The notes beneath the pieces are model-generated. The model saw only the letters and a program-made list of their open reading frames with translations. It did no database searches and was not told where the DNA came from. From positions 1 to 27,934 of the IMG/VR virus record IMGVR_UViG_3300048590_001245: 27,934 bases of DNA. One strand, given 5' to 3'. Position 1 is the first letter of the stretch. Every line of letters starts with the position of its first letter. Below, piece by piece: positions 1,237 through 26,338 of the stretch. This stretch comes from a virus. Both the position numbers and the translations under genes were made by a program.

Positions 1237-2361
1237 CTACTCCATAAAGAAAACGGCAGGCTTTCGCGCCGAGCGAGAAAAAAGCGCCTGAGTGGCCTCG
1301 ACTATTTTTAGACCCCAAAGACCCTCCTTTAGGCCTGGAGAGGTAAGCTCTGCCTCGGAGAACTCAAACTCGACAAGCCCGCTGCCGAGATAAAGATACT
1401 TCTCGCTGTAGTCGGCTGTTTCGAGGCGAAAGCGCCGCTGAAAGTCGTTGAGATAGATCTCGAGCGTCAGCTCGCGCGGGAAAGAGGCGCCCGTGCGCAG
1501 AAGCCAGAAGTCTCTGAGCCCGACCTTGAGGCTGCCAGACGTCTTCTTGGTAAATTCGTACACGAGAGGCCCCCCCATATCGGGGACGGGAGTCGACACC
1601 TCGAGCTCGAGCTCCTGCAGAAGAGCTTGAGCCCCCGCCCCAGCAGGCCAGCCAAGAAGGGCTCCAAGCCGCTCCTTGTAGCGGGCAAGCTCACCTCGAG
1701 CCTCGGCCACTTGGGCCTCAAGCTCCGCTTTGACCCCCTGCAGAAGCCTCTCAGTCTCGGCCTTTTGGGCCTGAAACTCGGCCCGCAGAGCCGCCAGCGA
1801 GGCCTTGGCGACCTCCTTGAAGGTTAAAAACTCCCCTCGGGTGGCGGCCAGCTCTCGCATCAGCTCGAGCGTGTGCCGCTGGCCTTGCGTGAGAGACAGC
1901 GCCACCGCAGCAAGCTCCCGTGCCAAGGAGAGGTTGAGGCGCTCTCCGACCCCTTCGACTGCAATGAGAGAGTCCGGGATCTCTTCGAGAATGAGGTCGA
2001 TGCCAAAAAGCAGGTCTTCCGACGCTATCCGCTTGGCGAGAATCTCGCCTGCCCTAGAGAGCACGGCAAAGAGGATCGGTCCGTCCACCCCTTCGAGGCT
2101 TGCCACAATGCCCATCTCGCCGACGTCGTAGGCTTCTCTCCCAGAGCGAAACTCGGCTGTGAGGTGAACGCGGTTTCCAGAGACCCGGTTTGAGTCGGCA
2201 AGACTCGAAGCCTCGACCCTCTCCTTGAGCGCCTCCTCCGAGCCGTCTGGATCGTAGGAGGCCTTTCCCAGCTCAATGCCGACAAAGCGAAGCCTCTTGC
2301 CCCTGGCCTCGGCCTCGGCCAGGGCCTCGAGCCCGCGTCTTGTAATCCTAGGGCGCTCCAT
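1237..2361 (-). CDS. Tail fibre / tail-collar fibre protein (P2 gpH-like N-terminus)
   Basis: This is a receptor-binding or fibre-attachment protein of the phage tail. The N-terminus, MERPRITRRGLEALAEAEA with RFVGIELGKASYDPDGSEEAL and later YDVGEMGIVASLEGVDGPIL, follows the P2 gpH-type tail-collar pattern (IT..G...LA.A, a GxG-like turn, then E-GI....DG). A central alanine/glutamate-rich helical stretch at about residues 160-245 should form a coiled coil, followed by a C-terminal beta-rich domain. At 374 residues it is short for a gpH fibre, and no long distal repeats are present. The ATG at 2361 overlaps the stop of gpI (TGATG); a TTG one codon earlier is also possible. No VR-like sequence is seen in it, so it is not a second DGR target. 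Confidence 0.78.
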   Translation of the reverse strand: MERPRITRRGLEALAEAEARGKRLRFVGIELGKASYDPDGSEEALKERVEASSLADSNRVSGNRVHLTAEFRSGREAYDVGEMGIVASLEGVDGPILFAVLSRAGEILAKRIASEDLLFGIDLILEEIPDSLIAVEGVGERLNLSLARELAAVALSLTQGQRHTLELMRELAATRGEFLTFKEVAKASLAALRAEFQAQKAETERLLQGVKAELEAQVAEARGELARYKERLGALLGWPAGAGAQALLQELELEVSTPVPDMGGPLVYEFTKKTSGSLKVGLRDFWLLRTGASFPRELTLEIYLNDFQRRFRLETADYSEKYLYLGSGLVEFEFSEAELTSPGLKEGLWGLKIVEATQALFSRSARKPAVFFME

Positions 2362-2927
2362 CAACGCCCCACGACGGCGGCAAAACGCTTGATGCGAGTC
2401 AGGCGCGCAAACATCGCTGCCCCGACTGTGGCCTCGGCCTCAAACATGACGTCGAGGTCAAAGCGGGCTCTAAGCGGCTTTAGCGACTCGATGACGCGCA
2501 GGATGCGGCGTCTTTCGGCCTCGCCAAGGGGGCGGTTGTCCTTGTTGAAAAGGATGACCTTGAAGGTGTAGGGCTCCCTCGGCTCGGGGTGGTCCCACCA
2601 CTCGCGGATTCTAGCCCTGACGCCAAGGGTCTCCATGGCCAAGTCGATGGCAGCCAGGGTGCCGCGCAGCCTTTTGATCTTCTCAAAGCGAGAGATGATC
2701 TCACGGCGCCGCCTCGTCAGGTCGTCTTCGCTCTCCACCCCGACAAAGTCCTCGTCCCACAGCTCAACCCCCCTCTCCCAAGCCAGATACGGCAGAAAGG
2801 CCGGCGGGCAGGTGTCAGGGTCAAAAAGCGAGGCAAAGTCAAAGGAGAGGCCCTCGAGCCTCTGCCCTGCGACCTCCTCGAGCGTCCTCTCAAGCGGCGT
2901 CGAATTTTTCGGCAGAAGGCTTGTCAC
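2361..2927 (-). CDS. Tail protein I (baseplate component)
   Basis: This is the P2 gpI-type baseplate protein, 188 residues. It opens with LLPKNSTPLERTLEEVAGQR and continues DPDTCPPAFLPYLAWERGVELWDEDF, the hallmark of the family (an N-terminal helix, then P..LP.LAW......W). The later RRREIISRFEKIKRLRGT and MFEAEATVGAAMFARL segments also fit. The GTG start at 2927 overlaps the gpJ stop as GTGA, and the gene ends in overlap with the fibre gene. The order gpV, gpW, gpJ, gpI, fibre matches P2, which supports the call independently of motifs. Confidence 0.88.
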   Translation of the reverse strand: MTSLLPKNSTPLERTLEEVAGQRLEGLSFDFASLFDPDTCPPAFLPYLAWERGVELWDEDFVGVESEDDLTRRRREIISRFEKIKRLRGTLAAIDLAMETLGVRARIREWWDHPEPREPYTFKVILFNKDNRPLGEAERRRILRVIESLKPLRARFDLDVMFEAEATVGAAMFARLTRIKRFAAVVGR

Positions 2928-12240: not shown

Positions 12241-12533
12241 ATGACCTCTCCCCTGGAAAGCTCGGCCAAGGCGTCGTCGATGGCCCGAGTGAGCACCTCT
12301 TCGACCTCGGCTGGCTCACCAAGGAGAGCCAGGGTGGGCGCCAGCGACGCTGGGATCGCAAGAAGCCTCGCCTTGGCTGCCATGACGGCCGCCTTCCAGA
12401 GCTTTTTCACCTCGTCGACTGGCACGAGCTGGCGCTCTTTCTCGAGCAGCTCCAGCTCGAGCTTGTCGGCTCTCACCTTGGTGAGCCGCACCTGCTCGAC
12501 CTCGAGGGCTCCTCCTTTGTGTTCTTCCCTCAA
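12237..12533 (-). CDS. Terminase small subunit, short Nu1-like
   Basis: A TTG at 12533 overlapping the recombinase stop (TTGA) gives 98 residues. The core TKVRADKLELELLEKERQLVPVDEV, followed by AKARLLAIPASLAPTLA, is the C-terminal oligomerisation part of Nu1-type small terminases. The usual N-terminal winged-helix DNA-binding domain (about 60-70 residues) is absent: starting earlier adds only 15 residues that overlap the recombinase. Either DNA recognition for packaging is supplied elsewhere or this is a naturally short relative. Downstream it overlaps the large subunit by 4 nt. Confidence 0.75.
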   Translation of the reverse strand: MREEHKGGALEVEQVRLTKVRADKLELELLEKERQLVPVDEVKKLWKAAVMAAKARLLAIPASLAPTLALLGEPAEVEEVLTRAIDDALAELSRGEVI

Positions 12534-14257
12534 AGCCTCACTCCGGTGGAGGTTTGCAGACGGACAGTCGGCAGCCACCTGGTGTCGACCTCGGCGTCGT
12601 CGATTTTTAGATAGGCGTAGGTCTGGTCGACGGCGCTGTGATTCATTTTGAGCTGGATACTACGGATATCGGCGCCGTCTTCGTAGGCAAACTTGGCCCA
12701 CGAGACTCTGAGACTGTGGGCTCTTCTTTGGCTTCCCCCGGCAGCAAGCGGGGTGATGCCGGCCTTGTCGAAAAGGACACTAATGCGGCGACAGCTGGTC
12801 GAAATGCCTAGCGGCTTGTCCTTGACCTCGAGAGAGGCCGAGAAAAGGTAGGCCTCGGGAGGGGCGTCGTGAAAGTAGCGCTCGATATAGGCCTCGACCA
12901 TGTCGGCGACTGGCTTTGAGACGCCGACAGTGTAGCGATCGGCGTTGGCCTTGCTTTCAATGGCGAGGCTTTTGCCGCGGCGTGTCTCGACGAGGTCGCA
13001 CTTTCTAAGCGAAAGAAGCCCGCTGTGGCGCATGCCGACGCCGGCCAAGAGGTAGACGGCCAAGAGGTCGCGGTGGGCCTTCCAGCGCTGGGGGATGTTC
13101 AAAGGCGGCGTCGACTTCAAGATCTCCTGGGCCGTGGCGATGACCTTGGCGGTTTCGTCTCGGGTGAGCGCCTCGGTCTGGACCTTTCTGTCGATCTTTG
13201 GAACCTTGAGCCTTTGAAGCGGGTTTTTCGGGATCTCCTCTTCGCCAGCGCAAAACTGCATGAAGGCTTTGACGGCCGACAGCTCGCTGGCGATGGTGGC
13301 CGGCTGCTTGCCAAGCTCGGCTCGGTACTGCTTGAAGGCCACGACGCTTTCCAGCGTGAACTTGTCGAGACGGTCGGCGGGGCTTTCGAGCACGTCCTTG
13401 GCAAAGGCGCGATAGGTGCCAAGGTGCTTGCGGTAGAGCTTGGCGGTGGCGGGCTTTCTTTGGCCGGAAAGAAAGATCTCGAGAAGCTGCTCGAGCCTCT
13501 CTTCGGGCGTCTCTGCGAGGTTTCCAAGCCTTGCTAGGCTTTTGGCCGGCTCGGACTTGTCGCTCTCCACCTTGCGCGCAAGCGGTCGCTGGTGGCCGCG
13601 CGTGTAGCGGTGGGCGGCACTCACCGACACGCCGTACTTCTTTGCCAAGGCCTCCAGCGTTGCGCCCTCTCGCCTCTCGCGCTGCATGTCGGAGATAAAG
13701 CTTTTGCCGTGGGCCTCGGCGATGCTCGGCAGCCGTCGGGGGCGGAGCTTTTTCTGATGAGTGTTCATGACCCCGGTGAGAAACGAGCTGGTCATCTGCT
13801 CTTTGGGATCAAGCAGCAGGTTTTCATCAAGCAGCCGCACGTAGAGGCCGTCTTTCCGGCGCTTCTCGTAGAGATCGACGAAGAGGTCGATGTCGAGCCT
13901 GGGGTGGTTCAGGCCATCGATCACCACCACACTGCGGTCTTCGGCCGTCAGCATCAGCGAGCGAAAGGAGGTATTCTTTTCGAGTACCACCCGCACCTTG
14001 TTCATGCGCTCGTCCAGGTGCGGCAGCATCTTGCCGGGATGCCGCCTCTCCTCCTGCGCCCGGTAGAGCCGCTTCATCTCCTCCAGTGAGCCACCAAGCG
14101 ACACGTAGTAGATCGTCAGCACCCGACTCTGCTCCTTCCCCAGCACGCTTTTGCGAATAAATAGCGCCCAAGCCCCACCCCTTTCTTCGTCGTGAGAAGT
14201 AGGAGGTAAGACAGGGTTACTCCGAAGGGCCGGGACGGCACCGAAGATGAGACGCAA
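12530..14257 (-). CDS. Chimeric recombinase: resolvase-like N-terminus plus tyrosine recombinase
   Basis: This probably integrates or excises the phage DNA. The C-terminal half is a tyrosine recombinase: a SAM-like core-binding domain at about 250-340, then a catalytic domain with Arg410 (AGVGMRHSGLLSL), His514-x-x-Arg517 (RRAHSLRVSW), His540 (KMNHSAVDQTYAYL) and probable nucleophile Tyr549. The N-terminal 220 residues resemble a serine recombinase: LFIRKSVLGKEQ with a serine at 37 where resolvases carry the catalytic one, SVVVIDGLNHPRL where they have a DRLSR motif, and a helix-turn-helix at about 198-218 (ATLEALAKKYGVSVSAAHRY). The DRLSR arginines are not conserved, so that domain may be inactive. 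The start is a TTG at 14257 with AGGG nearby; no better in-frame start is seen. The gene overlaps the small terminase. Confidence 0.8.
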   Translation of the reverse strand: MRLIFGAVPALRSNPVLPPTSHDEERGGAWALFIRKSVLGKEQSRVLTIYYVSLGGSLEEMKRLYRAQEERRHPGKMLPHLDERMNKVRVVLEKNTSFRSLMLTAEDRSVVVIDGLNHPRLDIDLFVDLYEKRRKDGLYVRLLDENLLLDPKEQMTSSFLTGVMNTHQKKLRPRRLPSIAEAHGKSFISDMQRERREGATLEALAKKYGVSVSAAHRYTRGHQRPLARKVESDKSEPAKSLARLGNLAETPEERLEQLLEIFLSGQRKPATAKLYRKHLGTYRAFAKDVLESPADRLDKFTLESVVAFKQYRAELGKQPATIASELSAVKAFMQFCAGEEEIPKNPLQRLKVPKIDRKVQTEALTRDETAKVIATAQEILKSTPPLNIPQRWKAHRDLLAVYLLAGVGMRHSGLLSLRKCDLVETRRGKSLAIESKANADRYTVGVSKPVADMVEAYIERYFHDAPPEAYLFSASLEVKDKPLGISTSCRRISVLFDKAGITPLAAGGSQRRAHSLRVSWAKFAYEDGADIRSIQLKMNHSAVDQTYAYLKIDDAEVDTRWLPTVRLQTSTGVRL

Positions 14258-15406: not shown

Positions 15407-15472
15407 CCGACGGCGCTACGCAGCTACCACCCAAACAAGTCAGCGTCGGTGCCTATAGAGCCCGCTGGAGAG

Positions 15473-15982
15473 ATGATGGTAAACGACGTTAACCAGAAAA
15501 AAGCGGACCTCAGTGAGGCCCAAACCCTTGAGGAGGACTTTCGAGCCCATCGACAAGCCGATTGGGTGGCCCCCCAAGGCGACGAGCGCTCTGAGATCCA
15601 CGAGATCGACCGACAGGTGAAAGAAAACCTCGCCAAGCGTCACGGCGGCGGCCGGCCCAAAAGCGACGAGCCCCTGGTGGCCGTCTACATGAAGTGGCCA
15701 GAGTCGCTGCTTGCCAACGCCAAGGAAGAGGCAAGGCGCCTCAACATCGGCTACCAGAGCTTCATCAAGATGGCCGTCACCGAGTACATCCGTCTAAGAC
15801 GCGCCAGAGAGCGCGAAACAGCCCAGCTCGGCGACAAGTACACGCTCGCAGAGGAGATCGAGGCCGCAAAGAACGACCGCCTCGCCGAGTGGGCGGGAAA
15901 GGTCGAGCCCCTCGATCCCGGCCAATCCGTCGACGAGGTGATCGACGACATGCGGGGAGGCCTCCCCAGAGAGCGCCGCTGA
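15473..15982 (+). CDS. CopG-family antitoxin-like protein, no visible toxin partner
   Basis: The ATG at 15473 (ATGATG) has GGAG a few bases upstream, giving 169 residues; an earlier GTG at 15449 lacks a ribosome site. The centre, GRPKSDEPLVAVYMKWPESL followed by EEARRLNIGYQSFIKMAVTEYI, is a ribbon-helix-helix of the CopG/BrnA kind that binds operators as a dimer. An acidic, charged N-terminus of about 75 residues and a C-terminal SVDEVIDDMRGGLPRE tail flank it. No toxin gene is adjacent: about 80 bases lie upstream and 240 downstream without a good frame. It may be an orphan antitoxin or a plain regulator. Confidence 0.65.
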   Translation: MMVNDVNQKKADLSEAQTLEEDFRAHRQADWVAPQGDERSEIHEIDRQVKENLAKRHGGGRPKSDEPLVAVYMKWPESLLANAKEEARRLNIGYQSFIKMAVTEYIRLRRARERETAQLGDKYTLAEEIEAAKNDRLAEWAGKVEPLDPGQSVDEVIDDMRGGLPRERR

Positions 15983-16161
15983 TACCAACGCCCTGCTCGA
16001 GACGCTTCTTCGGAGGGATCGGTCTGGCTGCCAGGCTGGGCGGCCGAGCTGGCGATGGCGAACATCAGAAGCCATGCCCCGATAGCCTAAAAATATCTGT
16101 TAATTCAGGCATATATATACGCGGTTAAGTTACTCGTTATTCTGACGATAAGGTGTGTACT

Positions 16162-16184
16162 TCACACATTAGTGTGAGTATAAT
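16162..16184 (+). promoter_or_regulatory. Promoter with overlapping operator for the MqsA-like pair
   Basis: TCACAC-ATTA-GTGTGA is a perfect six-base inverted repeat at 16162-16177, followed one base later by a consensus -10 TATAAT at 16179-16184. No good -35 exists at 17 bases, which fits a promoter whose upstream part is an operator. A repressor bound at the dyad would cover the -35 area. The HTH antitoxin encoded second in this operon is the natural candidate. Confidence 0.6.
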
Positions 16185-16221
16185 ACGGAAGGCTTGCGTG
16201 AAGAGAGGAACGATCAGCTGC

Positions 16222-16671
16222 ATGAGTGACTTCACCAAGAGAAGGCTCAAAGACTTCCACGAAGCTCTCAAGCCCCGCTGTCACACGGAGAAGAGTTTTC
16301 ACGACAGCTTTCTCGTCAGGCGAAACCATCTTGTGAAGAGCGCCGAGAAGGATCCCAACATGATCCGACTCAACCTCGGCGACGAGCAAATCGCAGCCGT
16401 CATCGCCACCGGTCAACTCAACGAAGACCAGTCACGCATGAACGGCACCCTGCCTGAGATTGCCCTCGAGGGAAAATTTAGAGACTTCCCCTGGACCGAG
16501 CTCGACACGACAGGGGGCGATAAAGCAGTCGACCATATTGAGCCGCTCGTGGTCGTGAGAGTTGTTGTCCGCCAAGGAGCAAGAAAGCACATCGTCGTCA
16601 CCGCCTATCGACCATGGCGGGAAATCATAAATCCCGATCTGCTTCCGGAGGTGACATATGACTTTTGGTAA
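16222..16671 (+). CDS. Putative toxin partner of MqsA-like antitoxin, family not recognised
   Basis: A 149-residue protein beginning MSDFTKRRLKDFHEALKPRC. A GTG at 16198 with GGAAGG upstream is an alternative start, but it would be nearly leaderless from the promoter at 16179. The N-terminal third is basic and helical. The C-terminal half alternates strands: IEPLVVVRVVVRQGARKHIVVTAYRPW. The order, small basic protein first and zinc-finger/HTH protein second with a 14-nt overlap, is that of MqsRA and HigBA modules, so a toxin is inferred from context. It shows no MqsR, RelE or HigB motif I can name. Confidence 0.55.
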   Translation: MSDFTKRRLKDFHEALKPRCHTEKSFHDSFLVRRNHLVKSAEKDPNMIRLNLGDEQIAAVIATGQLNEDQSRMNGTLPEIALEGKFRDFPWTELDTTGGDKAVDHIEPLVVVRVVVRQGARKHIVVTAYRPWREIINPDLLPEVTYDFW

Positions 16672-17218
16672 CCTGCAGCGCCTAGACCAACGCCGTCTCC
16701 AGGATGAGTTCGAAGACGCCCACGCCACGTGTGACTGCAAAGGCAAGTGGAAGGTCACGACCCGAGAAAACATCCCCCACACCATCGAAGGGCTCGGCAT
16801 GGTCCTCCTGGTGAAAGCGCCCTTTGTCGAGTGCGACACCTGTGAGGCGCTCTATTTCTACCCAGGGCTCGAGCAGAATCTCAGGCTCGGCATTGCCACA
16901 CAGCTCATCAACGATGCGCACGCTCTCGACAAGCGGCAACTGAGGTTTCTTCGCATCGTTGCCGGCATGACCCAGCAAGAAACCGCCAGTGCCCTCAACA
17001 TGGACGTCAAGGAATACAACAAGTTTGAATCAGTCAACAACGCGACCCGCCATCTCAGCATCGACCGGCAGTTTCGTCTCCGGGTGATCTATGCCCGCCG
17101 TCTAGGGCTCGATCTGAATGAGCTGGCACGTATCGCTGATCATCTCGACCCTGATCAGACCGTCCATCTGCCACAGCGGATCGAAAGCAATGACCTCTTC
17201 AACCGCCTCGCTCTTTAA
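16658..17218 (+). CDS. MqsA/YgiT-like zinc-finger plus HTH antitoxin
   Basis: A 186-residue protein with a GGAGG site before ATG 16658. The N-terminal domain has a CDC pair and, 30 residues later, CDTC (about residues 25-27 and 58-61), a four-cysteine zinc site as in MqsA. The C-terminal half is an XRE-type helix-turn-helix: LDKRQLRFLRIVAGMTQQET followed by ASALNMDVKEYNKFES, in which the helix after Q-Q-E-T is the recognition helix. It likely neutralises the upstream protein and represses the operon at 16162-16184. The C-terminal 40 residues extend beyond typical MqsA. Confidence in the fold is high, in the function moderate. Confidence 0.72.
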   Translation: MTFGNLQRLDQRRLQDEFEDAHATCDCKGKWKVTTRENIPHTIEGLGMVLLVKAPFVECDTCEALYFYPGLEQNLRLGIATQLINDAHALDKRQLRFLRIVAGMTQQETASALNMDVKEYNKFESVNNATRHLSIDRQFRLRVIYARRLGLDLNELARIADHLDPDQTVHLPQRIESNDLFNRLAL

Positions 17219-17437: not shown

Positions 17438-17724
17438 AGGTGACGAAAGACGCCAAGCTAGACGTCGCATACATCAAGCTCCGCACCGGCAAGGTCGCAT
17501 CCACGGTCGAGCTGCGCCCGGGCATCTTGTTCGACCTTGACAAGAACGGCCAGGTGCTTGGGATCGAAGTGCTAGCATTGAGCCAACTCGCGCCGCTGCT
17601 CAAAGCAAGCGGCTCAAGCGGTCGAACCGCCCGAGCGCGTAGGCAGCAGCCAGGCAGCAGACGGCAAGAAAACGCGGAAAACCGAAGGTCATCGACAGCA
17701 GCGCAGCGGTCGTCAAATCGTTAG
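17434..17724 (+). CDS. DUF2283 family protein
   Basis: A 96-residue protein from GTG 17434. KVTKDAKLDVAYIKLRTGKVASTVELRPGILFDLDKNGQVLGIEVLALS is the complete DUF2283 pattern (D...D..YI.L..G.V..T.E..PGI..DLD..G...GIE.L). DUF2283 genes often sit next to DUF4258 genes and are suspected antitoxins. After residue 55 the protein turns into an arginine/glutamine/serine-rich tail without structure, which is longer than usual for this family. The partner upstream is truncated, so the pair is probably inactive as a toxin-antitoxin system. Confidence 0.7.
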   Translation: MKVTKDAKLDVAYIKLRTGKVASTVELRPGILFDLDKNGQVLGIEVLALSQLAPLLKASGSSGRTARARRQQPGSRRQENAENRRSSTAAQRSSNR

Positions 17725-17756
17725 TCTTTGTCGCAATCTAACCAGCTGGGTGCGGC

Positions 17757-17776
17757 GTCTTTTTGCAGAGAAAGAC
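17757..17776. terminator. Hairpin between convergent genes
   Basis: GTCTTT, an 8-base loop and AAAGAC make a six-pair hairpin. It lies between the plus-strand DUF2283 gene and the minus-strand HigA gene, where a bidirectional terminator could serve. There is no T-tract, so this is tentative. Confidence 0.3.
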
Positions 17777-17803
17777 GGGGGTCGGACGCAGGGAGCCGCT
17801 TGC

Positions 17804-18154
17804 TTACTCTTGTTCATCCTCGCGCCGATCCCAAACAATCCGGGGACGCCTGCCTAACACACGCCCCAGCTCCACAAGACTGGCTAGCGTGAGATTCGCC
17901 TCCGCATTGACGATCTTATAAGCCTGCCGAGTACTTGTTCCAAGTCTCGAGGTGAGCATGGGGACCCCGATTTTTTCAGTCGCCATGAACTCAACCACAG
18001 TCTTGCTCAGCTCTTCCTGCATCGCCTTCAAATCGGCAAGCTCTTGCAAAGCTTCGAGCCTGCTTTCCGCTCGCTCCTCTGGCGTCAGGCGCGCATTCAG
18101 CAGCTCGTCGACGTCCTGGAATTGTTCAAGTCGCTCTTTGGTAAAGCGAGCCAC
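17804..18154 (-). CDS. HigA-like XRE antitoxin
   Basis: A 116-residue protein from GTG 18154. Helical N-terminus (FTKERLEQFQDVDELLNARL), then LADLKAMQEELSKTVVEFM and a helix-turn-helix at about residues 60-100: MATEKIGVPMLTSRLGTSTR and AYKIVNAEANLTLASLVELG. This is the form of HigA partners of Gp49/HigB toxins. The toxin normally precedes the antitoxin, and a stub of one is found immediately upstream on this strand. It therefore appears to be a solitary antitoxin that may protect against related toxins or act as a regulator. Confidence 0.7.
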   Translation of the reverse strand: MARFTKERLEQFQDVDELLNARLTPEERAESRLEALQELADLKAMQEELSKTVVEFMATEKIGVPMLTSRLGTSTRQAYKIVNAEANLTLASLVELGRVLGRRPRIVWDRREDEQE

Positions 18155-18157
18155 AGC

Positions 18158-18253
18158 CTACTCCTTGTCCTGCAGCCGTTTTTGAGCAGTTTCGATGTCG
18201 GATGCTTGCGATCCCTTGTCATCACCGACGAGCAGGATGGCCCCGTCCTTCTC
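18158..18253 (-). pseudogene. Remnant of a HigB/Gp49-like toxin
   Basis: Reading the minus strand, 31 sense codons lie between an in-frame TAA (18254-18256) and a TAG. They translate as EKDGAILLVGDDKGSQASDI and a following helix ending LQDKE. This is the C-terminus of Gp49/HigB toxins (G.ILL..DK....DI..A...L). No start codon remains in frame. A strong ribosome site (AAAGGAG at 18263-18269) and an AT-rich, promoter-like stretch lie just upstream, so an internal deletion seems to have removed the toxin body while leaving its expression signals and the antitoxin. Confidence 0.65.
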
Positions 18254-18468
18254 TTATCGGATCTCCTTTGATTTTACTATATGAAAAATTTGTCATAAAG
18301 TACAAACTCTAGCCGCCCTATCCGACGTCATCCCAAGCCCCTCTACTCCCTCCATAAAAGTCGAGCTGTTGAGCCAGATTCTCACTTTCCCTAAAGACTT
18401 TGAGGCAAAAGTCCGACCTCCTCCTACAAGCCGCCTAGAGGAATCCGTGCCTGCTCGGAGTTGCCCGA

Positions 18469-21400
18469 ATGCCCAAGCACCACCAACTCTCCTCGGCTCT
18501 GACCGGGCTGTGGCTCGCCCTGGCGCCGCTGGCTGCTAGCGCAGGCCCGTTCCCGTTGTCCTACGGCGGACGCCTGACTGATGCGACCGGTGCACCGTTG
18601 TCGGGGCCGGTCGATCTTGCCGTGAATTTCTTCCGAAGCGAGACCGGCGGCAATCCGCTGCTCGGCGAGCCGGTCGTCGCCCCCTCCGAGACCCTTCAGG
18701 ACGGAGTTTTCCAGCTTACTCTCGATCTGCCGGTCGACGACTACACGACGATTTTCCCCTCGGCCGAAACGACCGCCTATATCGAGATCACCGACCAGAC
18801 CAACGCGCGCACCTATCCCCGGCAGCGCTTTACTGTCGTACCGCTGGCAGCCCGGGTGCCGGTCGACGGCAGCACCGTGACGTTTGACGACAACGGCCGC
18901 CTCAAGGCCACTCTTCCGGCCGCCGCGGCCAATACGCCCGGCGTGATCAAAGCGACCGGCGCCTTCGTCGAAGTCGACGCAGGGGGTGACATCACCGCCA
19001 TCAAACAAGCACAGAGCTTCTCCGGCACGCTGAGCGGTGACGTCAGCGGCACGCAGAATGCCACAGTGGTCACCAAGATCCGCGGCAAGGCCTTCACGGA
19101 TGCGCTCGATGCCAGCAATGACCAGAAGGTCGTCAAGTGGGACAACGCCACCGGCAGCTTCAAGCTCATGAACGACATTGCCAGCGGCGGCCTGAACGCT
19201 GGCGACGTCACGTCGACCACCATAGCCGACGGCACCATCGCAAACGCCGACATCAGCGCCTCGGCCAACATCGATGCCGGCAAGATCGGCACGGGAGCAG
19301 TCGACAACACGCACTTCAACTATTTGGCGGGCCTGACCTCAGACCCGCAAGCCCAGCTCAACGCCAAGCAGTCGACCATCACGGCCGCCACCGTCCTGCC
19401 GGTCGGCTCGCTCACCACGGACCTGCAGGCCGCCGTGACGCTCGGCGGCTATGGCAGCGGCGCGGGACAAACCGGCGAGCTGCGCTTTACCGAGCGTGAC
19501 GGGCTCGAGAGCAACTACGTCGGCCTCAAGGCGCCCGACGCGGTCGCAAGCAATCAGATCTGGACTCTGCCAGCCGCAGACGGCACGGCCGGCCAGCTGC
19601 TCAGCACAAATGGCTCGGGCGCCTTGTCTTGGGTGACAGCAACCACCGCCAGCTCGGGAGACACCCTGACCAACAAGACGATCAGCGCCGACGACAACAC
19701 GATCACGGGCATCGACGACTCGGAGATCAAAACAGGCGCGGGTATCGCCCGCGCCAAGCTGGCTTCCGGCACGGCTTCCCACGTGCTCGTCAACGACGGC
19801 AGCGGCGTGATGAGCTCCGAGGCGCAGCTTTCGATCTCCCGCGGCGGCACCGGGGCCGCCACCGCCAGCGCGGCACTCACCAACCTGCTACCCGCCCAGA
19901 CCGGCAACTCCGGCAAGGTTCTCTCGACCGACGGCACGGCGGCCTCGTGGAGTGCTCTCAACGCGGCCAACTGGGACACGGCGCACACCGACCGCCTGAA
20001 GTGGGACGGCGGCTCTGCCGGCCTCGTCGCCGCCACCGGCCGAACGAGCCTCGGCCTCGGCACATCGGCTACGCTCGATGCCGGCACCGCCGCCAATCAA
20101 CTGGTGCAGCTCGATGGCACGGGCAAGCTGCCAGCCGTCGACGGCTCGGCCCTTACCAGCCTCAGCCCCGCCAACCTCAGTGCGGCCGTGGCCGTAGCCA
20201 AGGGCGGCACCGGCGCGACGACGGCCGATGGAGCTCTGACGAATCTTCTGCCCGCACAGACGGGCAACTCCGGCAAGGTGCTCACGACCGACGGCAGCAC
20301 GACGTCGTGGCTTGCTCTCAGCACCAGCAACTGGAATACAGCCTACAGTGAGCGTCTGCAGTGGGACGGCGGCTCTACCGGCCTTGTCGCTGCGACGGCC
20401 CGCACCAGCCTAGGCCTCGGCACGGCCGCCACGTTGGACGTCGGCACCACTGCCAACAAGGTCGTGCAACTCGACGGCACTGCCAAGCTGCCCGCCGTCG
20501 ACGGCTCGCAGCTCACGAGCGTCGTCACGACAGCGACGGTCGACAGCGCCGGTGCCGTGATGAACGGCGACTTCGGCTCAAACGGCCTGATGGCCCGCAC
20601 CGGTGCGGGGACCTACAGCGTCGTGACCGATAACTCCGCCAACTGGGACACCGCCTACACGGACCGCATGAAATGGGACGGCGGTGCCACCGGCCTGGTC
20701 GCCGCGACCGCGCGCACCAGCCTCGGCCTTGGCACCAGCGCGACACTCGATGTCGGCACCACCGCCAACAAAGTCGTCCAGCTCGACGGTAGTGCCCGGC
20801 TTCCGGCCGTCGACGGCTCGCAGCTCACCAATTTGCCGGCAGCCAGTCTCACCTGCCCCACGGGCTATATCCTGGTGCCGGGCAATGCGAGCTTCACCAA
20901 CGCAAGCTTCTGCGTCATGAAGTACGAGGCTAAGAAGGATGGCGCCACCGGCCAGGCCGTCTCGACCGCCACGGGCACCCCCTGGGTCAACGTCTCCTGG
21001 TATGAGGCTCAAAGCGCCTGCAAGCGGGTCGGCGGCCACCTTGTCAACGAAGGCGAGTGGATGACCATCGCTCGCAACATCGAGGCAACCGCCATCAACG
21101 ACATCGACTCTGCAGCCGGCATCCAGCTTGCCACCGGCCACTCCGACAACTCTCCGGCTAGCGCCTTGGCCGCGGTGGCGGACCCCTCGCTTGCGAGCTG
21201 CACGCTGACCCTTGCACTCTCCGATGCCAGCAACAACTCCTGCGCCCTGCGTGGCCCCGGCACCTACGCCAACAACAGCACCGACTACGGCTACTACGGT
21301 ACCAGCAACGGCTACAGCACAGCCTACTCGGCTGGTGGTGCCAACAAGTCGCAAATGCGCACCCACGTCCTCAGCAACGGCAATGTCATCTGGGACATGG

Positions 21401-21711
21401 CCGGCAACGTCTGGGAGTGGACGGATGCGCAATGCGATACGACGAGCTGGTACACCACCGGATGGGTCGAGTGGAACAACGCCAACGTCACCGACTGGGA
21501 GAAACTAGTCGCTGGCCCAAGCGGCTCTCTGACCTCCTCAAACGGGGCCGGTCAGTATTATGGATGCAGCGCAAGTGGCAATGCCCTGCTCCGCGGCGGC
21601 CTCTGGTACTATGGCCCGATCGCCGGCGTGTTCGCCGCCACTCTGTACTATGGGCCGTCGGACGTCAGCAGCTCCGTGGGCTTTCGCTGCGCCTTCTCCA
21701 ATGCCCACTAA
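18469..21711 (+). CDS. DGR target protein: exported, tail-fibre-like repeats, FGE/C-type-lectin domain
   Basis: A 1080-residue surface or secreted protein that is diversified by the DGR. The N-terminus is a Sec signal peptide (hydrophobic ALTGLWLALAPLAASA, cleavage likely after ASA at about residue 24). A beta-sandwich-like domain (SYGGRLTDATGAPLSGPVDL) follows. Residues 500-790 carry three 65-residue copies containing RTSLGLGTAATLDVGTTANK and LPAVDGSQLT, the type found in phage tail fibres. From about 794 the formylglycine-generating-enzyme-like fold begins: CPTGYILVPGNASF, FCVMKYEA, VSWYEAQSACKRVGGHLVNE, MAGNVWEWTD, and GFRCAFS at the end. That domain presents 12 template-adenine-dependent codons at 1045-1069, of which 11 differ from the template. 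GGAG lies 9-10 bases before the ATG. There is no anchor at the C-terminus, so how it stays on the surface is unknown. Confidence 0.9.
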   Translation: MPKHHQLSSALTGLWLALAPLAASAGPFPLSYGGRLTDATGAPLSGPVDLAVNFFRSETGGNPLLGEPVVAPSETLQDGVFQLTLDLPVDDYTTIFPSAETTAYIEITDQTNARTYPRQRFTVVPLAARVPVDGSTVTFDDNGRLKATLPAAAANTPGVIKATGAFVEVDAGGDITAIKQAQSFSGTLSGDVSGTQNATVVTKIRGKAFTDALDASNDQKVVKWDNATGSFKLMNDIASGGLNAGDVTSTTIADGTIANADISASANIDAGKIGTGAVDNTHFNYLAGLTSDPQAQLNAKQSTITAATVLPVGSLTTDLQAAVTLGGYGSGAGQTGELRFTERDGLESNYVGLKAPDAVASNQIWTLPAADGTAGQLLSTNGSGALSWVTATTASSGDTLTNKTISADDNTITGIDDSEIKTGAGIARAKLASGTASHVLVNDGSGVMSSEAQLSISRGGTGAATASAALTNLLPAQTGNSGKVLSTDGTAASWSALNAANWDTAHTDRLKWDGGSAGLVAATGRTSLGLGTSATLDAGTAANQLVQLDGTGKLPAVDGSALTSLSPANLSAAVAVAKGGTGATTADGALTNLLPAQTGNSGKVLTTDGSTTSWLALSTSNWNTAYSERLQWDGGSTGLVAATARTSLGLGTAATLDVGTTANKVVQLDGTAKLPAVDGSQLTSVVTTATVDSAGAVMNGDFGSNGLMARTGAGTYSVVTDNSANWDTAYTDRMKWDGGATGLVAATARTSLGLGTSATLDVGTTANKVVQLDGSARLPAVDGSQLTNLPAASLTCPTGYILVPGNASFTNASFCVMKYEAKKDGATGQAVSTATGTPWVNVSWYEAQSACKRVGGHLVNEGEWMTIARNIEATAINDIDSAAGIQLATGHSDNSPASALAAVADPSLASCTLTLALSDASNNSCALRGPGTYANNSTDYGYYGTSNGYSTAYSAGGANKSQMRTHVLSNGNVIWDMAGNVWEWTDAQCDTTSWYTTGWVEWNNANVTDWEKLVAGPSGSLTSSNGAGQYYGCSASGNALLRGGLWYYGPIAGVFAATLYYGPSDVSSSVGFRCAFSNAH
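19969..20835 (+). repeat. Three 65-residue coding repeats in the DGR target
   Basis: Copies at 19969-20163, 20329-20523 and 20641-20835 encode near-identical blocks, beginning NWDTA or NWNTA and ending AVDGS.LT. Copies 1 and 2 are also preceded by a shared 45-residue block (GGTGA...TNLLPAQTGNSGKVL), so a longer unit was duplicated. These probably form the stalk that holds the variable domain away from the cell. Confidence 0.8.
21582..21695 (+). repeat. DGR variable repeat (VR)
   Basis: This 114-bp segment ends 16 bases before the end of the target gene. Against TR (24071-24184) it is identical at all 92 non-adenine positions. Thirteen of TR's 22 adenines are replaced: seven by T, four by C, two by G. 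Changed codons encode residues 1045, 1047, 1048, 1050, 1051, 1058, 1060, 1061, 1065, 1067 and 1069. The last 20 bp (GTGGGCTTTCGCTGCGCCTT) contain no adenine and are the expected initiation-of-mutagenic-homing region. Just past 21695 the two repeats diverge at non-adenine bases. Confidence 0.97.
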
Positions 21712-21750
21712 GTCCTTGGTTTCTTGGACCTTGGTCCTTGGTTTTGGGGT

Positions 21751-21769
21751 CTGGGGGCGTAGCCCCCAG
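21751..21769 (+). other. DGR hairpin downstream of VR
   Basis: CTGGGGGC and GCCCCCAG form an eight-pair GC-rich stem with the loop GTA, 39 bases after the target stop and 55 bases after VR. In Bordetella phage BPP-1 a similar hairpin/cruciform behind VR aids target recognition. Here the loop is three bases and the distance is longer. It might also end transcription of the target gene, though it has no T-run. Confidence 0.65.
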
Positions 21770-21776
21770 CGGCTCC

Positions 21777-21803
21777 ATTTCGGAAATTTCCGAAATTTCG
21801 GAA
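21777..21803. repeat. 9-bp repeat cluster 1
   Basis: Three tandem units ATTTCGGAA, ATTTCCGAA, ATTTCGGAA, then a diverged fourth. Units alternate between the two orientations of TTCSGAA, so 21777-21796 is a perfect 20-bp palindrome. The cluster starts seven bases after the VR hairpin. Confidence 0.85.
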
Positions 21804-21874
21804 ATTGTGCCGAAACAGCACATTCGCGTAAGTTGTTGATTTAATTTATTATGTCTATTTCTCCATCAGGCAGC

Positions 21875-21942
21875 ATTTCCGAAACTTCGGAAACGTCACT
21901 TCCGCAACTTCCGCAACTTCGGAAATTTCCGAAATTTCGGAA
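21875..21942. repeat. 9-bp repeat cluster 2
   Basis: Seven units of the form AYTTCSGMA (ATTTCCGAA, ACTTCGGAA, a 5-base break, ACTTCCGCA twice, ACTTCGGAA, ATTTCCGAA, ATTTCGGAA). It lies 79 bases upstream of the DNA-binding protein start and is the most degenerate cluster. The last three units repeat the alternation of cluster 1. Confidence 0.85.
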
Positions 21943-22020
21943 ATTATGCCAGTCAGGAATTTTCTCCTTTTGAGTGAGGATATCCCCTGCTAGGGTGCTT
22001 TGCGCTCCCAATCAAGGATC

Positions 22021-22719
22021 ATGCCGCCCGCGATGCCACGCCGCAGCCAGCCCCAATCCCAGCTCGAGGTAAGCGTCGATACTGCCGCGAAATCTCTCGG
22101 TGTTTCTGAGCGCATGGTCCTCAACTACATCAAGGCCAGACAGATCAAGGCGCTGCGTGTCGGCAAGCGCTGGTATGTCGACCTCGCCTCGCTGGAGGCC
22201 TTTCGGCAGGCCAGCGGTCTCACGGAAAGGGAGCCTCAGGCCATTTCCGAAACTTCGGAAATTTCGGAAATTTCGGAAATTTCGGAAACGCTTCCGAAGT
22301 CGCCGGAGGCCACAGGCAGCGAACGCCCGCCGCGCCCCAGGCGGGCCTCCTCTGGGAAGAACCTCGACGGGCTTGCCTGCTACCGGCTGTGCCTGGAGGC
22401 TTTCCGGATGCCGATGTGGGGGGACGCCGACAAGCTCCGCTACGGCCATCGACTGCGTGATCTGCAGGGCGCGATTCTCGAGCAGCTCGGCTCCGGGTTC
22501 TATTCGTATGGCGCAGAAAAGCGCGCCTACTATGACCGCTCCCGAGGACTGATCGGTGCGGCGTTGGCGCTCGTTTACAGTGATCCTGATGCGAGGCTGC
22601 GTTGGGCCAGCGACGTCGCCTTTCTGGAGGGCGATGTGCTGCCCGCGTTTGCGTCTTTGATCAAGAAAATCGAGCGTGGTCAGGACCGCGACGGCCGGGG
22701 GCGACGCCATGAGCGCTAG
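22021..22719 (+). CDS. HTH_17/excisionase-like DNA-binding protein with helical C-terminal domain
   Basis: The ATG at 22021 has AAGGA very close upstream; ATG 22033 is an alternative. The protein has 232 residues. Residues about 20-70 are an excisionase/MerR-like winged helix: VDTAAKSLGVSERMVLNYIK then RQIKALRVGKRWYVDLASLE. The linker at 75-93 contains SEISEISEIS, encoded by 9-bp repeat cluster 3. From about residue 117 a helix-rich domain of about 105 residues follows (ACYRLCLEAFRMPMW, LRYGHRLRDLQGAILEQL, GLIGAALALVYSDPDARLRW, VLPAFASLIKK). Its size and helix layout recall Avd, which is encoded next, so it may be a diverged Avd-like bundle. Its stop overlaps avd by 11 nt. It probably regulates the DGR or helps recognise the target; this is inference. 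Confidence 0.8.
   Translation: MPPAMPRRSQPQSQLEVSVDTAAKSLGVSERMVLNYIKARQIKALRVGKRWYVDLASLEAFRQASGLTEREPQAISETSEISEISEISETLPKSPEATGSERPPRPRRASSGKNLDGLACYRLCLEAFRMPMWGDADKLRYGHRLRDLQGAILEQLGSGFYSYGAEKRAYYDRSRGLIGAALALVYSDPDARLRWASDVAFLEGDVLPAFASLIKKIERGQDRDGRGRRHER
22243..22287 (+). repeat. 9-bp repeat cluster 3, inside the DNA-binding protein gene
   Basis: Five tandem units (ATTTCCGAA, ACTTCGGAA, then ATTTCGGAA three times), followed after ACG by the palindromic CTTCCGAAG to 22299. The nine-base period keeps the frame and encodes ISE/TSE triplets in the linker. The first two units match the first two of cluster 2. Confidence 0.85.
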
Positions 22720-23086
22720 AAGCCCCAAGATCCTCGCCGACAGCTACCAATTGACCGTCATGGTATTTGGAAGAACACGCAGCTTTCCCAAACACTACCG
22801 CCCGACACTTGGCCGCCGCCTGGAGGACCGGGCGATCGACCTGACGTCAGCCGTCCGCGTCGCTAGCCTTGCCAAAAGTGGCGGCAAAGACTCGCGGCGG
22901 TCCGCCTCCTTGGAGAGCGCCTCGGAGCACTTGGACGAGATCCGGATTCTGCTTCAGCTTTCGCATGACATGCAGATCATTCCGACCACCGGCTATGCCG
23001 AGCTGAGCGAGCTGACCGCCGAGGTCGGTCGGCAGATCGGTGGCTTTGGGAAGTTCGAGGCGGATGCCCGTGACCACGCTCCTTGA
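22709..23086 (+). CDS. avd: DGR accessory variability determinant (Avd)
   Basis: A 125-residue four-helix bundle protein that forms a pentameric barrel, binds the template RNA and is needed with the reverse transcriptase for adenine-directed cDNA synthesis. ATG 22709 has GGGGG six bases upstream. Characteristic blocks: SFPKHYRPTLGRRLEDRAID, then SLESASEHLDEIRILLQLSH, and EVGRQIGGFGKF at the end, equivalent to the FP...R..LG.RL, L..A...L...R.LL.L..D and GR.LGGW motifs of Avd. Basic residues in helices 1 and 2 would face RNA. It overlaps the upstream gene by 11 nt and the reverse transcriptase by about 23 nt, so expression is coupled. Confidence 0.92.
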   Translation: MSARSPKILADSYQLTVMVFGRTRSFPKHYRPTLGRRLEDRAIDLTSAVRVASLAKSGGKDSRRSASLESASEHLDEIRILLQLSHDMQIIPTTGYAELSELTAEVGRQIGGFGKFEADARDHAP

Positions 23087-24017
23087 CGAGGTGGCGGCGT
23101 TCGAGAACCTTGCACGGGCTTTCCAGCTCTGCGCACGCGGCAAGCGTGCCTCGACCGGCTATCAGCGCGCCATGTTTGCCCACGGCGAGAAGCTCGTCGC
23201 CATGCGCGGCAAGATCCTAGCAGGCCAGTATCGCTGGGGACGCTACCGGGAACTCTTGGTGAGAGACCCCAAGTCGCGTCGCGTCTTGGCGGCTCCCTTT
23301 ATGGACCGCGTCGTCCATACAGCCATCCACGAGATCATCGAGCCGATCCTCGATCCCCTGGTACCGGAGAGCGTGTATGCCTGCCGTCACGGCAAAGGCA
23401 ACCGGAAGGCCGCGACGGATCTTCTTGCGGTGCTTCGCGAGCATGGCAAAGACCGCTTCGTCATCAAGCTCGACGTCGCGCAATACTTTGCCTCGATCCG
23501 GCATGACGTGCTGCTCGCCAAGCTTTTCGAGGCGCTGCCAGACCGGAGTCTCGAGCCTCTTCTGGCTTCACTCCTGCAAAGCCATGCCGAGTATGCCTCT
23601 CGCGGCTACGGCATCCCGATCGGAAACCTGACGTCCCAGGTGTTTGCCAACTTTTATCTCGTCTCCGCCGACCGTGTCGCCACCGAGCAGCTCAAAGGCG
23701 GCTTCTACTTCCGTTACATGGACGACATGGTCCTCGGGGGCCGCAATAAGTCGGTGGTCCTCGACGCGGCCGACGCCGTGACCCAGCACGTCGAAAGCGA
23801 GCTGAGACTTTCGATTCCCCACTTCAAGCGGATGCCGCTCGGTAACGCGCCCGTGCCGTTTTTAGGATATGTGCTCGATCACGGCGGCTATCGGATTCTA
23901 AGCCGCAACAAGAGGAGGTTTGCCAAGCGGATAGGGCGCCTGGAACGCTCGGGAGCCCGCCCGAGCCGGATGGCGCAGAGCGAGCTGTCGTTTCGTTCTT
24001 TCGAGAATTTGCTATGA
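23064..24017 (+). CDS. DGR reverse transcriptase
   Basis: This enzyme copies the TR RNA into cDNA with random bases opposite adenines. ATG 23064 has GAGG six bases upstream and gives 317 residues; a GTG at 23040 is earlier but has no better site. Key motifs: KLDVAQYFASI at about 135-145 (motif 3, first catalytic Asp), GIPIGNLTSQVFANFYL at about 183-199, in which IGNLTSQ replaces the QGxxxSP of other reverse transcriptases and is diagnostic of DGR enzymes, and FRYMDDMVL at about 216-224 (catalytic YMDD). FLGYVLDHGGYRIL is the motif 7 region. No maturase or endonuclease domain is present, as expected. It is followed 53 bases later by TR. Confidence 0.96.
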   Translation: MPVTTLLDEVAAFENLARAFQLCARGKRASTGYQRAMFAHGEKLVAMRGKILAGQYRWGRYRELLVRDPKSRRVLAAPFMDRVVHTAIHEIIEPILDPLVPESVYACRHGKGNRKAATDLLAVLREHGKDRFVIKLDVAQYFASIRHDVLLAKLFEALPDRSLEPLLASLLQSHAEYASRGYGIPIGNLTSQVFANFYLVSADRVATEQLKGGFYFRYMDDMVLGGRNKSVVLDAADAVTQHVESELRLSIPHFKRMPLGNAPVPFLGYVLDHGGYRILSRNKRRFAKRIGRLERSGARPSRMAQSELSFRSFENLL

Positions 24018-24070
24018 AAAAGGTGTCGGGCTCAGAATGGCCGCGCCTGCCGTTCAGCGTTGTCCGAAGG

Positions 24071-24184
24071 TGCCCTGCTCCGCGGCGGCAACTGGAACAA
24101 TGGCACGAACGCCGGCGTGTTCGCCGCCAATCTGAACAATGGGCCGTCGAACGTCAACAGCAACGTGGGCTTTCGCTGCGCCTT
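24071..24184 (+). ncRNA. DGR template repeat (TR) within the template RNA
   Basis: This 114-bp copy is the unchanging donor for VR. In VR's frame it reads ALLRGGNWNNGTNAGVFAAN and so on. Eleven of the 12 adenine-bearing codons begin with A and ten are AAC or AAT, the codons that reach most residues without stops when adenines change. The final 20 bp match the VR end perfectly. It lies 53 bases after the reverse transcriptase stop, so the template RNA is probably the 3' part of the operon transcript. RNA ends are unknown. Confidence 0.96.
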
Positions 24185-24237
24185 GTCGTTCGCCCGGCGG
24201 CCGTGAGACTTGGGGGTTCGCTGTCTGCGTGAGGGAA

Positions 24238-24259
24238 GTCTTTTCAGCGATGAGAAGAC
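24238..24259 (+). other. Hairpin with GNRA loop downstream of TR
   Basis: GTCTTTTCA and TGAGAAGAC pair over nine positions with one wobble, closed by a GCGA tetraloop. It begins 53 bases after TR, where BPP-1 carries a structured spacer needed for cDNA priming and Avd binding. It is a candidate structural element of the template RNA. Confidence 0.5.
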
Positions 24260-24317
24260 CACGCTGAGCCTTCTGATGTTTGTCCCAAGGCACTTCGAGC
24301 CAGACACCTGTGGCTGA

Positions 24318-24351
24318 CCGAGCTGAGGGTGGGAAACCGCCCCCAGCTCGG
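24318..24351. terminator. Large GC-rich hairpin closing the DGR
   Basis: CCGAGCTG and CAGCTCGG form the base of a long stem with inner GGTGGG/CCGCCC-type pairs and an AAA-containing loop. It lies between TR and the convergent ParE-like gene. No T-run follows, so it may be a bidirectional terminator or the 3' end of the template RNA. Confidence 0.5.
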
Positions 24352-24372
24352 GGTCCGAATCGATATCACCTG

Positions 24373-24699
24373 TCAGCTCCCAAAGAACTTCGGCGGTAGA
24401 TACGGAAACACACCATGAATCATGACGTCAGCCGAACTGTACGAATAAAGAATTACGTCGCCCTGAGCTGTGCCGGTCGATGCGATCGTCTTCACGCGGT
24501 ACGCTTTGTCCGCAGTCAGCGGCGCCGCCTCGGGATAACGCGCAAGCTCCTCGATTGCCGCGAGGACGTGCTCACGATAGCGGCGCCTGGTCTCTAACGG
24601 AAACGGCTGAAAGGCACCCATCGCACGAGCACGGCCACGAAATCGCCGTCGCGCACCTTCGGAGGCCCACCGCCATGGCAAGGCGGCGCGCTCAGTCAC
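24373..24699 (-). CDS. ParE/RelE-like toxin
   Basis: The GTG at 24699 overlaps the antitoxin stop by 8 nt and gives 108 residues. The first 27 are arginine- and alanine-rich, then GAFQPFPLETRRRYREHVLAAIEELARYPEAAP is the helical part and AYRVKTI...GDVILYSYSSADVMIHGVF the strands of a ParE/RelE-like fold. Assignment rests on this pattern and on the paired antitoxin. The long basic N-terminus is atypical, and a start at ATG (about residue 27) would give a more standard-length protein. Confidence 0.6.
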   Translation of the reverse strand: MTERAALPWRWASEGARRRFRGRARAMGAFQPFPLETRRRYREHVLAAIEELARYPEAAPLTADKAYRVKTIASTGTAQGDVILYSYSSADVMIHGVFPYLPPKFFGS

Positions 24700-25364: not shown

Positions 25365-26276
25365 TCAGCCTAGGTATTTTTCCTCGAGCCAAGACACTGC
25401 TGCGGTGAGATCCGCGCTTTGAGCCCACTGCATGAGTTCTCCCAGCGCGGCTGTTTCATCTGTTCCGACGTGGCGCGGAAGCACCTCATCAAAGCGAAAA
25501 TAGGCATTTCGCCCGAGAATCTGTCGGCACTGGTAGTCGGCGATCCCGACGTTGGCGTCGATCATCAGGCTTGCCATCGGCTGAGCCCACTGGGCAAAGC
25601 CCCAGTCGAGAGTCTTGCCGGAGATCCACTGTGGACTGCTTCCGCTCGAAAGCGAGAAGACGCGCAGCGAGCGGAGATCCTGGCGGCCGATGTCCGGGTT
25701 GATGGCCAGAGCCACGGCCGCCATCGCCGGGTTGTTGCACCCTACTCCACCGTCGACGTAGCCCTGGTAGCTTGGAAAGTAGGTCGGCGCCGCGCTCGAG
25801 CGCAAGGCTACGTCGACCATCCGTTCCGTCCCGTCTGAATCGGCCCCGGGGTAGTTGTGGAAGAACTTCATTTTCCACGTCCTCGGGGAACCCTCGTTGT
25901 CGAGGTCGAAGCTCGGAACGAGCACGCGCCGCCTTAGATCTGAGAGCTGCTGCTCGCCGAAGGTCCGCTCGAGAAGGCGCTTGAGGTAGCCCTGGTCATA
26001 GTCAGCGCCTATGACTTTGCCCATGTCCTGGAGGTTGTCGCACCAAGAGTCGTCAAAGACCTTGGCCCCATGCTGTTCGAAGAAGGAGACAAGCTCGGCT
26101 GCCGCCCTCCCCGAGGCCAGAGACAGGGCGTTAACAGAGCCAATCGAGGTGCCCGCAAAAAGGCGCACCGATGGCAGAAACGCAGGCACGGCTTCGGCAA
26201 GTCGAGCAAGGAGCACAGCCTGGTAAGCTCCTCGCACCCCGCCGCCATCGAGCGACAAGATCCGATAGGGCTTCAT
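25365..26276 (-). CDS. Patatin-like phospholipase
   Basis: A lipid acyl hydrolase, 303 residues from ATG 26276 (an ATG six codons earlier is possible). It has the oxyanion motif LSLDGGGVRGAYQ at about 9-19, the nucleophile elbow GTSIGS with Ser44, and the catalytic Asp in GYVDGGVGCNNPA at about 175, so the Ser-Asp dyad is complete. No signal peptide or membrane anchor is visible, so it acts in the cytoplasm or at the inner membrane face unless released by lysis. It starts 63 bases after the endolysin stop on the same strand. It could aid membrane breakdown at lysis, or be a defence effector of the CapV type, although no cyclase gene is in the window. Confidence 0.9.
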   Translation of the reverse strand: MKPYRILSLDGGGVRGAYQAVLLARLAEAVPAFLPSVRLFAGTSIGSVNALSLASGRAAAELVSFFEQHGAKVFDDSWCDNLQDMGKVIGADYDQGYLKRLLERTFGEQQLSDLRRRVLVPSFDLDNEGSPRTWKMKFFHNYPGADSDGTERMVDVALRSSAAPTYFPSYQGYVDGGVGCNNPAMAAVALAINPDIGRQDLRSLRVFSLSSGSSPQWISGKTLDWGFAQWAQPMASLMIDANVGIADYQCRQILGRNAYFRFDEVLPRHVGTDETAALGELMQWAQSADLTAAVSWLEEKYLG

Positions 26277-26338
26277 GCGAGGCTCAAGCCGCATCGATAT
26301 GACCCCGGGTTATGGTTTGTACCGTAAGGTCGAGCCCT

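Follow-up and report, generated by a model that had tools for sequence, protein, structure and literature searches.

The window analysed here is the whole of IMG/VR record IMGVR_UViG_3300048590_001245, a linear viral fragment of 27,934 bases. On its plus strand, the interval from an integrase gene to a patatin gene carries a full diversity-generating retroelement (DGR), which comprises a target gene at 18469-21711, an HTH_17 protein, the accessory protein Avd, a reverse transcriptase (RT) and a template region (TR). The target is predicted to be an exported fibre similar to the mosaic adhesive trimer (MAT) proteins of Bdellovibrio bacteriovorus, and we consider it probable that the module is a phage cargo (moron) which provides the lysogen with a DGR-diversified, MAT-like host surface fibre. 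Judging from sequence comparison, every part of the module is akin to exported bacterial fibres and chromosomal DGRs. The features of the module are as follows, the variable region being abbreviated as VR and formylglycine-generating enzyme as FGE:

18469..21711, plus strand: DGR target, a predicted exported MAT-like fibre of 1080 aa; a single open frame, intact in six phage assemblies including the window
18469..18543, plus strand: predicted Sec signal peptide, residues 1-25; rule-based prediction with a control, position kept in 42/42 homologues
18544..18906, plus strand: N-terminal beta-rich anchor-type domain (N-domain), residues 26-146; alignment, and a model (pLDDT 83) consisting mostly of strands
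18907..20847, plus strand: stalk, with three direct repeats of about 300 nt (19843-20142, 20203-20502 and 20515-20814) bearing RTSLGLGT motifs
20848..21708, plus strand: FGE/C-type-lectin tip, residues 794-1080; Pfam PF03781 and structure model
21582..21698, plus strand: VR, from TR/VR comparison; hypervariable between assemblies
22000..22719, plus strand: HTH_17 accessory protein; Pfam PF12728
22676..23086, plus strand: Avd accessory protein (open reading frame (ORF) from the first possible start); phrog_3206 with E 9.7e-17, bAvd
23040..24017, plus strand: DGR reverse transcriptase; PF00078, phrog_1423 and tree
24071..24187, plus strand: TR, from TR/VR comparison

The locus was found to possess a DGR-type RT, an adenine-biased TR/VR pair, Avd and a C-type lectin scaffold for the VR. 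Within the window, the VR and the TR differ at 14 positions, of which 13 are TR adenines and the 14th lies at the edge. The assemblies G003 and G005 differ at 14 positions in 14,021 nt, and 12 of these fall inside the 117-nt VR (chance about 1e-23), all 12 at TR adenines; this concentration in the VR, exclusively at TR adenines, therefore demonstrates that the DGR works in nature, where it is active and diversification is ongoing. Comparison of the window with G003 gave 46 silent and 9 replacement codons in the tip outside the VR, against 2 silent and 11 replacement codons inside it. With 12 variable codons, about 9e12 tips without stop codons can be generated. An earlier note, made from the sequence alone, had described 18469-21711 as a DGR target, and both the TR/VR mismatches and the hypervariation of the VR between assemblies bear this out. 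Arrays of palindromic 9-bp units (TTTCGGAAA/TTTCCGAAA) are present at 21776-21945, upstream of the HTH_17 gene, and at 22243-22297 within the gene, and might be operator or autoregulation sites. A sigma-70 promoter scan of 17600-24500 yielded matches at chance level only.

The VR lies inside the C-terminal tip, for which an FGE-like variable domain had been proposed in the same note, and this assignment was upheld. The FGE fold is present in the tip, which matches Pfam PF03781 above the family cut-off (E 3.6e-6), and its model (pLDDT 91.6) is closest in the PDB to the DGR protein TaqVP (Z 19.5). Further structure matches were Mtd (Z 14.4), TvpA (Z 13.5) and the MAT tip Bd2740 (8OKS; Z 10.3 over 106/109 residues). 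The catalytic cysteine pair of FGE sits in the C-terminal segment between the RGG and GFR motifs. Reading of the sequence revealed no cysteine between RGG and GFR in either the window or the TR, and the tip therefore appears to be a binding scaffold rather than an enzyme; a catalytic FGE was ruled out on the same absence. In the model, the tip has the C-type lectin fold of an adhesive tip such as Bd2740. Homologues of the tip were delimited by motif-based limits (single hidden Markov model matches gave only 8 long segments). In many Saccharibacteria, FGE tips of the FCVMKYEA type (L078-L156) are joined to the N-termini of type IV pilins, and in Bdellovibrionota they stand behind lipoprotein-type signals, so that one tip family is found on many surface anchors.

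The target occurs in five other viral contigs at 100, 93 or 88% identity; no NCBIfam family covers it, and the PDB, searched by sequence with the full-length protein, gave no match. Its predicted signal peptide, MPKHHQLSSALTGLWLALAPLAASA followed by GP, is of the Sec/SPase I type, with the cut between ASA and GP and without a lipobox. The prediction was made with a home-made rule, requiring a basic n-region, an uncharged hydrophobic core and AxA ahead of the cut, which among the 23 genes of the window passes the target and only one other. A hydrophobic core and AxA stand directly ahead of the N-domain in all 42 distinct homologue N-termini, 41 of which also satisfy the stricter home-made rule. 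Among 27 distinct DGR targets of viral contigs, five pass: two of the target's own group, two from L025 and L031, and one weak match. The Sec signal peptide postulated by the earlier note thus stands as a rule-based prediction, and it is almost certain in our judgement that the fibre is exported, presumably with cleavage of the signal. L025 and L031 represent another small group of viral-contig DGR targets that combine a signal peptide with a stalk (MTAIDLRKFIFPFVLMLLSVCIAFGQN...) and whose RT is only distantly related; their contigs are 4-5 kb long and putatively viral.

The stalk carries RTSLGLGTSA, RTSLGLGTAA and RTSLGLGTSA at residues 525, 645 and 749. The three tail-fibre-type repeats that had been read there are real as RTSLGLGT-type motifs within repeats of about 300 nt, but the exact string RTSLGLGTAATLDVGT occurs just once in the stalk, and the other two are variants of it.

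The N-domain defines a multigene family of exported bacterial fibres, and not of phage fibres, as far as its distribution in sequence databases indicates. In IMG/VR, a scan for proteins closely related to it returned only the five sister contigs, to which a profile added one related phage; there was no match in 72,556 plasmids, and nothing credible among 50,697 phage records, for which the best E was 0.5. A structure search of the PDB with the N-domain gave nothing significant (best E 6e-3, TEAD proteins, TM about 0.3), nor was there anything under E 0.001 in a viral structure library. In the metagenome-assembled genome (MAG) LJ_bin-0460 (G006), 30 copies were found, and matches occur in 12 of 58 genomes of its Oligoflexia-like phylum, which includes Oligoflexaceae (G010) and Oligoflexus (G014) MAGs. 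Copy numbers reach 47, 36, 24, 20 and 11 in G028, G032, G029, G031 and G030, respectively. In G028, G029 and G032 these repertoires are very large, with 24-47 exported N-domain fibres each, some in frames of 9,000-15,000 codons. Two loci of G006 (L101 and L107) encode a signal peptide, an N-domain, a GGTG-type stalk and an FGE tip, the tip of L101 being cut by the contig end.

Previous work showed that the MAT proteins of B. bacteriovorus have a signal peptide, a conserved beta-rich N-domain of about 130 aa and a phage-like trimeric stalk (Caulton et al., PMC10769870), and that these fibres carry mosaic tips and are displayed at the surface (PMC10769870). The profile of the target N-domain has one match in the B. 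bacteriovorus genome, a weak one (E 0.0145), which is the N-terminus of an S74 MAT frame, and hhalign of the two N-domains gave a probability of 74% and E 3e-5 for one pair only. Conversely, a MAT profile run against twelve genomes returned one strong MAT match in Bacteriovoracaceae and 13 weak ones (E 0.08-0.9), of which 10 coincide with N-domains already located by the target N-domain profile. The two N-domains are probably homologous on these alignments, and the target is a candidate member of the MAT proteins. The earlier note had seen in the target a hybrid of phage stalk and cell-surface protein; a phage-like stalk on an exported protein is indeed what was found, but the combination is not a one-off, as the same architecture exists in bacteria at L101 and L107 and is MAT-like.

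The rest of the cassette was also found to have bacterial relatives. A cassette in the order HTH_17-Avd-RT-TR occurs in G006, with proteins 48%, 56% and 58% identical to those of the window and a TR 86% identical in nucleotides; its contig is devoid of phage structural genes, and the HTH counterpart (48%) precedes avd. A VR partner of the G006 TR was not found on the contigs examined, the tip of L101 ending at the contig end ahead of the VR. In the Bacteriovoracaceae MAG.360 (L212), target, HTH_17, Avd, RT and TR follow each other in the order of the window on a contig without phage genes; the target there is a stalked, FGE-tipped, lipoprotein-type protein of 1763 aa, and 14/14 TR/VR mismatches are at TR adenines. 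The RT of the window is 58-61% identical to the RTs of G006; its identity to RTs of other viruses does not exceed 35%, and that over a short segment. In a tree of RTs, it pairs with G006 (100/97), and the pair is joined by G010 (99/95) and then by Bacteriovoracaceae (whole group 100/100), separate from all other viral RTs, which places the phage RT within a bacterial clade. The simplest reading of this phylogeny would be that the cassette moved from a bacterium to the phage, the reverse direction being possible.

The module is embedded in a phage genome. The minus strand of the window encodes a P2-like contractile-tail module (sheath, tail fibre phrog_3737, and gpI/J/W/V-like baseplate proteins) together with neck proteins, capsid, portal, terminase and integrase. 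The sister contig G001 (34,824 bases) shows 4 differences from the window in 19,978 bases and prolongs it leftward through a tube/closure-type protein, a tape measure and tail proteins as far as a ParA gene. Three genes of this backbone are needed for what follows:

1237..2364, minus strand: the phage's own tail fibre; phrog_3737 with E 5.7e-28, adjoining a gpI-like gene, without a signal peptide
12530..14257, minus strand: tyrosine integrase, bordering the cargo slot on one side; PF00589 and phrog_1
25365..26294, minus strand: patatin phospholipase, close to the slot border on the other side; PF01734

The phage is P2-like and temperate, and is probably maintained as a plasmid-like prophage. 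Plasmid-like traits include the ParA gene and a PriCT_1 Rep-like ORF (L071 of G001, 14034-15825; window 26926-27933, minus strand), and the contig ends of G001, G004 and G005 lie inside 15-bp tandem repeats whose sequence differs by lineage, as expected of iterons or partition repeats. The patatin at 25365-26294 is kin to phospholipase effectors of CBASS (cyclic-oligonucleotide-based antiphage signalling systems), scoring 177 bits with NF041079 (under the cut-off of 200) and E 3e-60 with a PADLOC effector; no cyclase was recognised within the window. At 16153-17218 on the plus strand there is a possible toxin-antitoxin pair, in which an MqsA-type antitoxin-like ORF comes after a DUF4258-like ORF; the two matches are weak.

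Three phage backbones differ in the contents of the integrase-patatin interval. In G000 and G001, the slot holds the exported fibre and its DGR. In G070 (TerL 97%, capsid 98% and patatin 99% identical), it holds no RT and a different exported fibre (1519 aa), which has the N-domain and a stalk of the RTNLGLG type. In G071 (TerL 83%, capsid 85%), the contiguous sequence of the slot (L292, 8959-13970) contains McrBC-like genes and an N6/N4 DNA methyltransferase gene, with neither fibre nor RT. The patatin beside the slot is 99% and 82% identical in these phages with other cargo (G070 and G071, respectively), and conservation of the phage's own tail fibre amounts to 80% in G071 and 91% in the partial contig G074, neither of which yielded an exported fibre or an RT. 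The slot contents are thus replaced between near-identical phages, with the tail fibre conserved independently, and the fibre-DGR module therefore behaves as lysogen cargo. By the same token, a fibre that can be swapped or lost beside a conserved tail fibre is unlike what would be expected of a virion adsorption protein.

Based on these results, a lysogen most likely exports the 1080-aa fibre via Sec, and the N-terminal domain would anchor it on the cell, so that display on the cell surface is very likely. The long phage-like stalk would then project the C-type lectin tip outward, while the DGR (Avd and RT, with the HTH accessory protein) would write a copy of the TR, randomly altered at adenines, into the tip gene, and lysogens could thereby come to differ in about 12 binding-site codons. 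The variable tip probably helps the host cell adhere to other cells, particles or prey, and would thereby raise the fitness of lysogen and prophage rather than serve virion adsorption, in which case selection would act on attachment of the cell. With good confidence, the fibre is used by the lysogen and not by the virion; possible ligands include other bacteria, prey, particles and rival phages. Export, host-side use and a non-virion role, as the earlier note had proposed, are thus favoured by the bacterial N-domain family, by the gene's place as exchangeable cargo away from the tail module, and by the presence of a separate tail fibre. The following weigh against this interpretation: the homology of the N-domain to that of MAT proteins consists of weak reciprocal matches only; most of the best local matches of the stalk in the 50,697 phage records carry a tail-fibre annotation; and a host search by capsid protein, covering 58 + 290 genomes from two candidate phyla, turned up distant relatives only, so that the host was not pinned down.

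Alternatively, the target might be a receptor-binding fibre of the virion, with the DGR switching phage tropism as in Bordetella phage BPP-1 and the apparent signal peptide being a hydrophobic segment for assembly or baseplate docking. Its stalk does resemble the tail fibres of HMO-2011 and HTVC309P, and tail proteins account for the majority of phage DGR targets (PMC8144416). However, the N-domain family is bacterial and always stands behind a signal peptide, an export signal that a tail fibre would be expected to lack. The gene also lies on the strand opposite to the tail module and outside it; sister phages lack it (G071) or carry a different one (G070), whereas the tail fibre at 1237-2364 is kept even where this gene is missing. 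We regard a virion fibre as unlikely and rejected it as the best reading on the N-domain family, the signal peptide, the gene location and the slot swap. It is also quite improbable that the exported fibre shields or mimics receptors on the lysogen (superinfection exclusion), with the DGR tracking rival phages. The slot can hold defence-type cargo, such as the McrBC/methyltransferase island of G071, and a CBASS-like patatin stands beside it, but the fibre in the slot of G070 is undiversified, and the bacterial relatives are adhesin-like families with up to 47 copies. A chromosomal DGR locus misjoined to phage contigs by assembly, which the bacterial kinship of the cassette could suggest, was rejected as having next to no likelihood, since the gene is present in six separate assemblies, is flanked on both sides by phage genes in G000, G001 and G003, and keeps a common arrangement in divergent lineages (88-93%).

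The usual view of phage DGRs is that they serve to alter tail tropism; for the lysogen fibre favoured here, a DGR on a phage does not imply a receptor-binding protein. The module also connects DGRs with the repertoires of MAT-like fibres in Bdellovibrionota and Oligoflexia-like bacteria, in which DGRs could diversify cell-cell or prey recognition. More speculatively, and rather doubtfully at present, a phage-plasmid may give a predatory or particle-attaching bacterium a self-diversifying recognition fibre of MAT type. If so, lysogeny itself would supply adaptive recognition of new prey or surfaces, a lysogenic conversion evolving through targeted mutagenesis.

The DGR and the fibre class are each known, while their combination and its phage carrier are new; a literature search found no paper linking DGRs to MAT fibres. 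In a survey of 92 phage-encoded DGRs, the targets had no detectable signal peptides or transmembrane regions (PMC6199706), and bacterial surface-displayed DGR proteins have been described, with cellular targets usually having signal peptides or transmembrane segments (PMC8144416). The MAT fibres of B. bacteriovorus (PMC10769870) resemble the target, as predicted, in having a signal peptide, a beta-rich N-domain of about 130 aa (with weak homology between the two), a phage-like stalk and a C-terminal tip, which in Bd2740 (8OKS) has the matching C-type lectin fold; they are chromosomal, whereas the target gene is phage cargo and its tip is of the FGE subtype with a VR. The BPP-1 DGR is likewise phage-borne, and its Mtd has a C-type lectin VR scaffold (Z 14.4), but Mtd is produced in the cytoplasm and forms a tail tip, unlike the present target, which is predicted to be exported and lies outside the tail module. 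In Legionella and Treponema, exported surface proteins are diversified by DGRs, and TvpA has the same C-type lectin fold; these targets are lipoproteins for which no phage-like stalk with a MAT-type N-domain has been described, and in T. denticola an association with phage was looked for and not found (PMC4891356). TaqVP, from a prophage DGR of Thermus aquaticus (PMC6328139), is the best match of the tip, of the FGE subtype and prophage-borne as well, but it is a single-domain protein without a long stalk or a MAT-type N-domain. Finally, the DGRs of the Bacteriovoracaceae MAG.360 (L212) and LJ_bin-0460 (L210) share the order HTH_17-Avd-RT-TR, with RTs 42-58% identical to that of the window; they differ in lying on contigs without phage structural genes, and the L212 target differs in its N-terminus and carries a lipoprotein signal.

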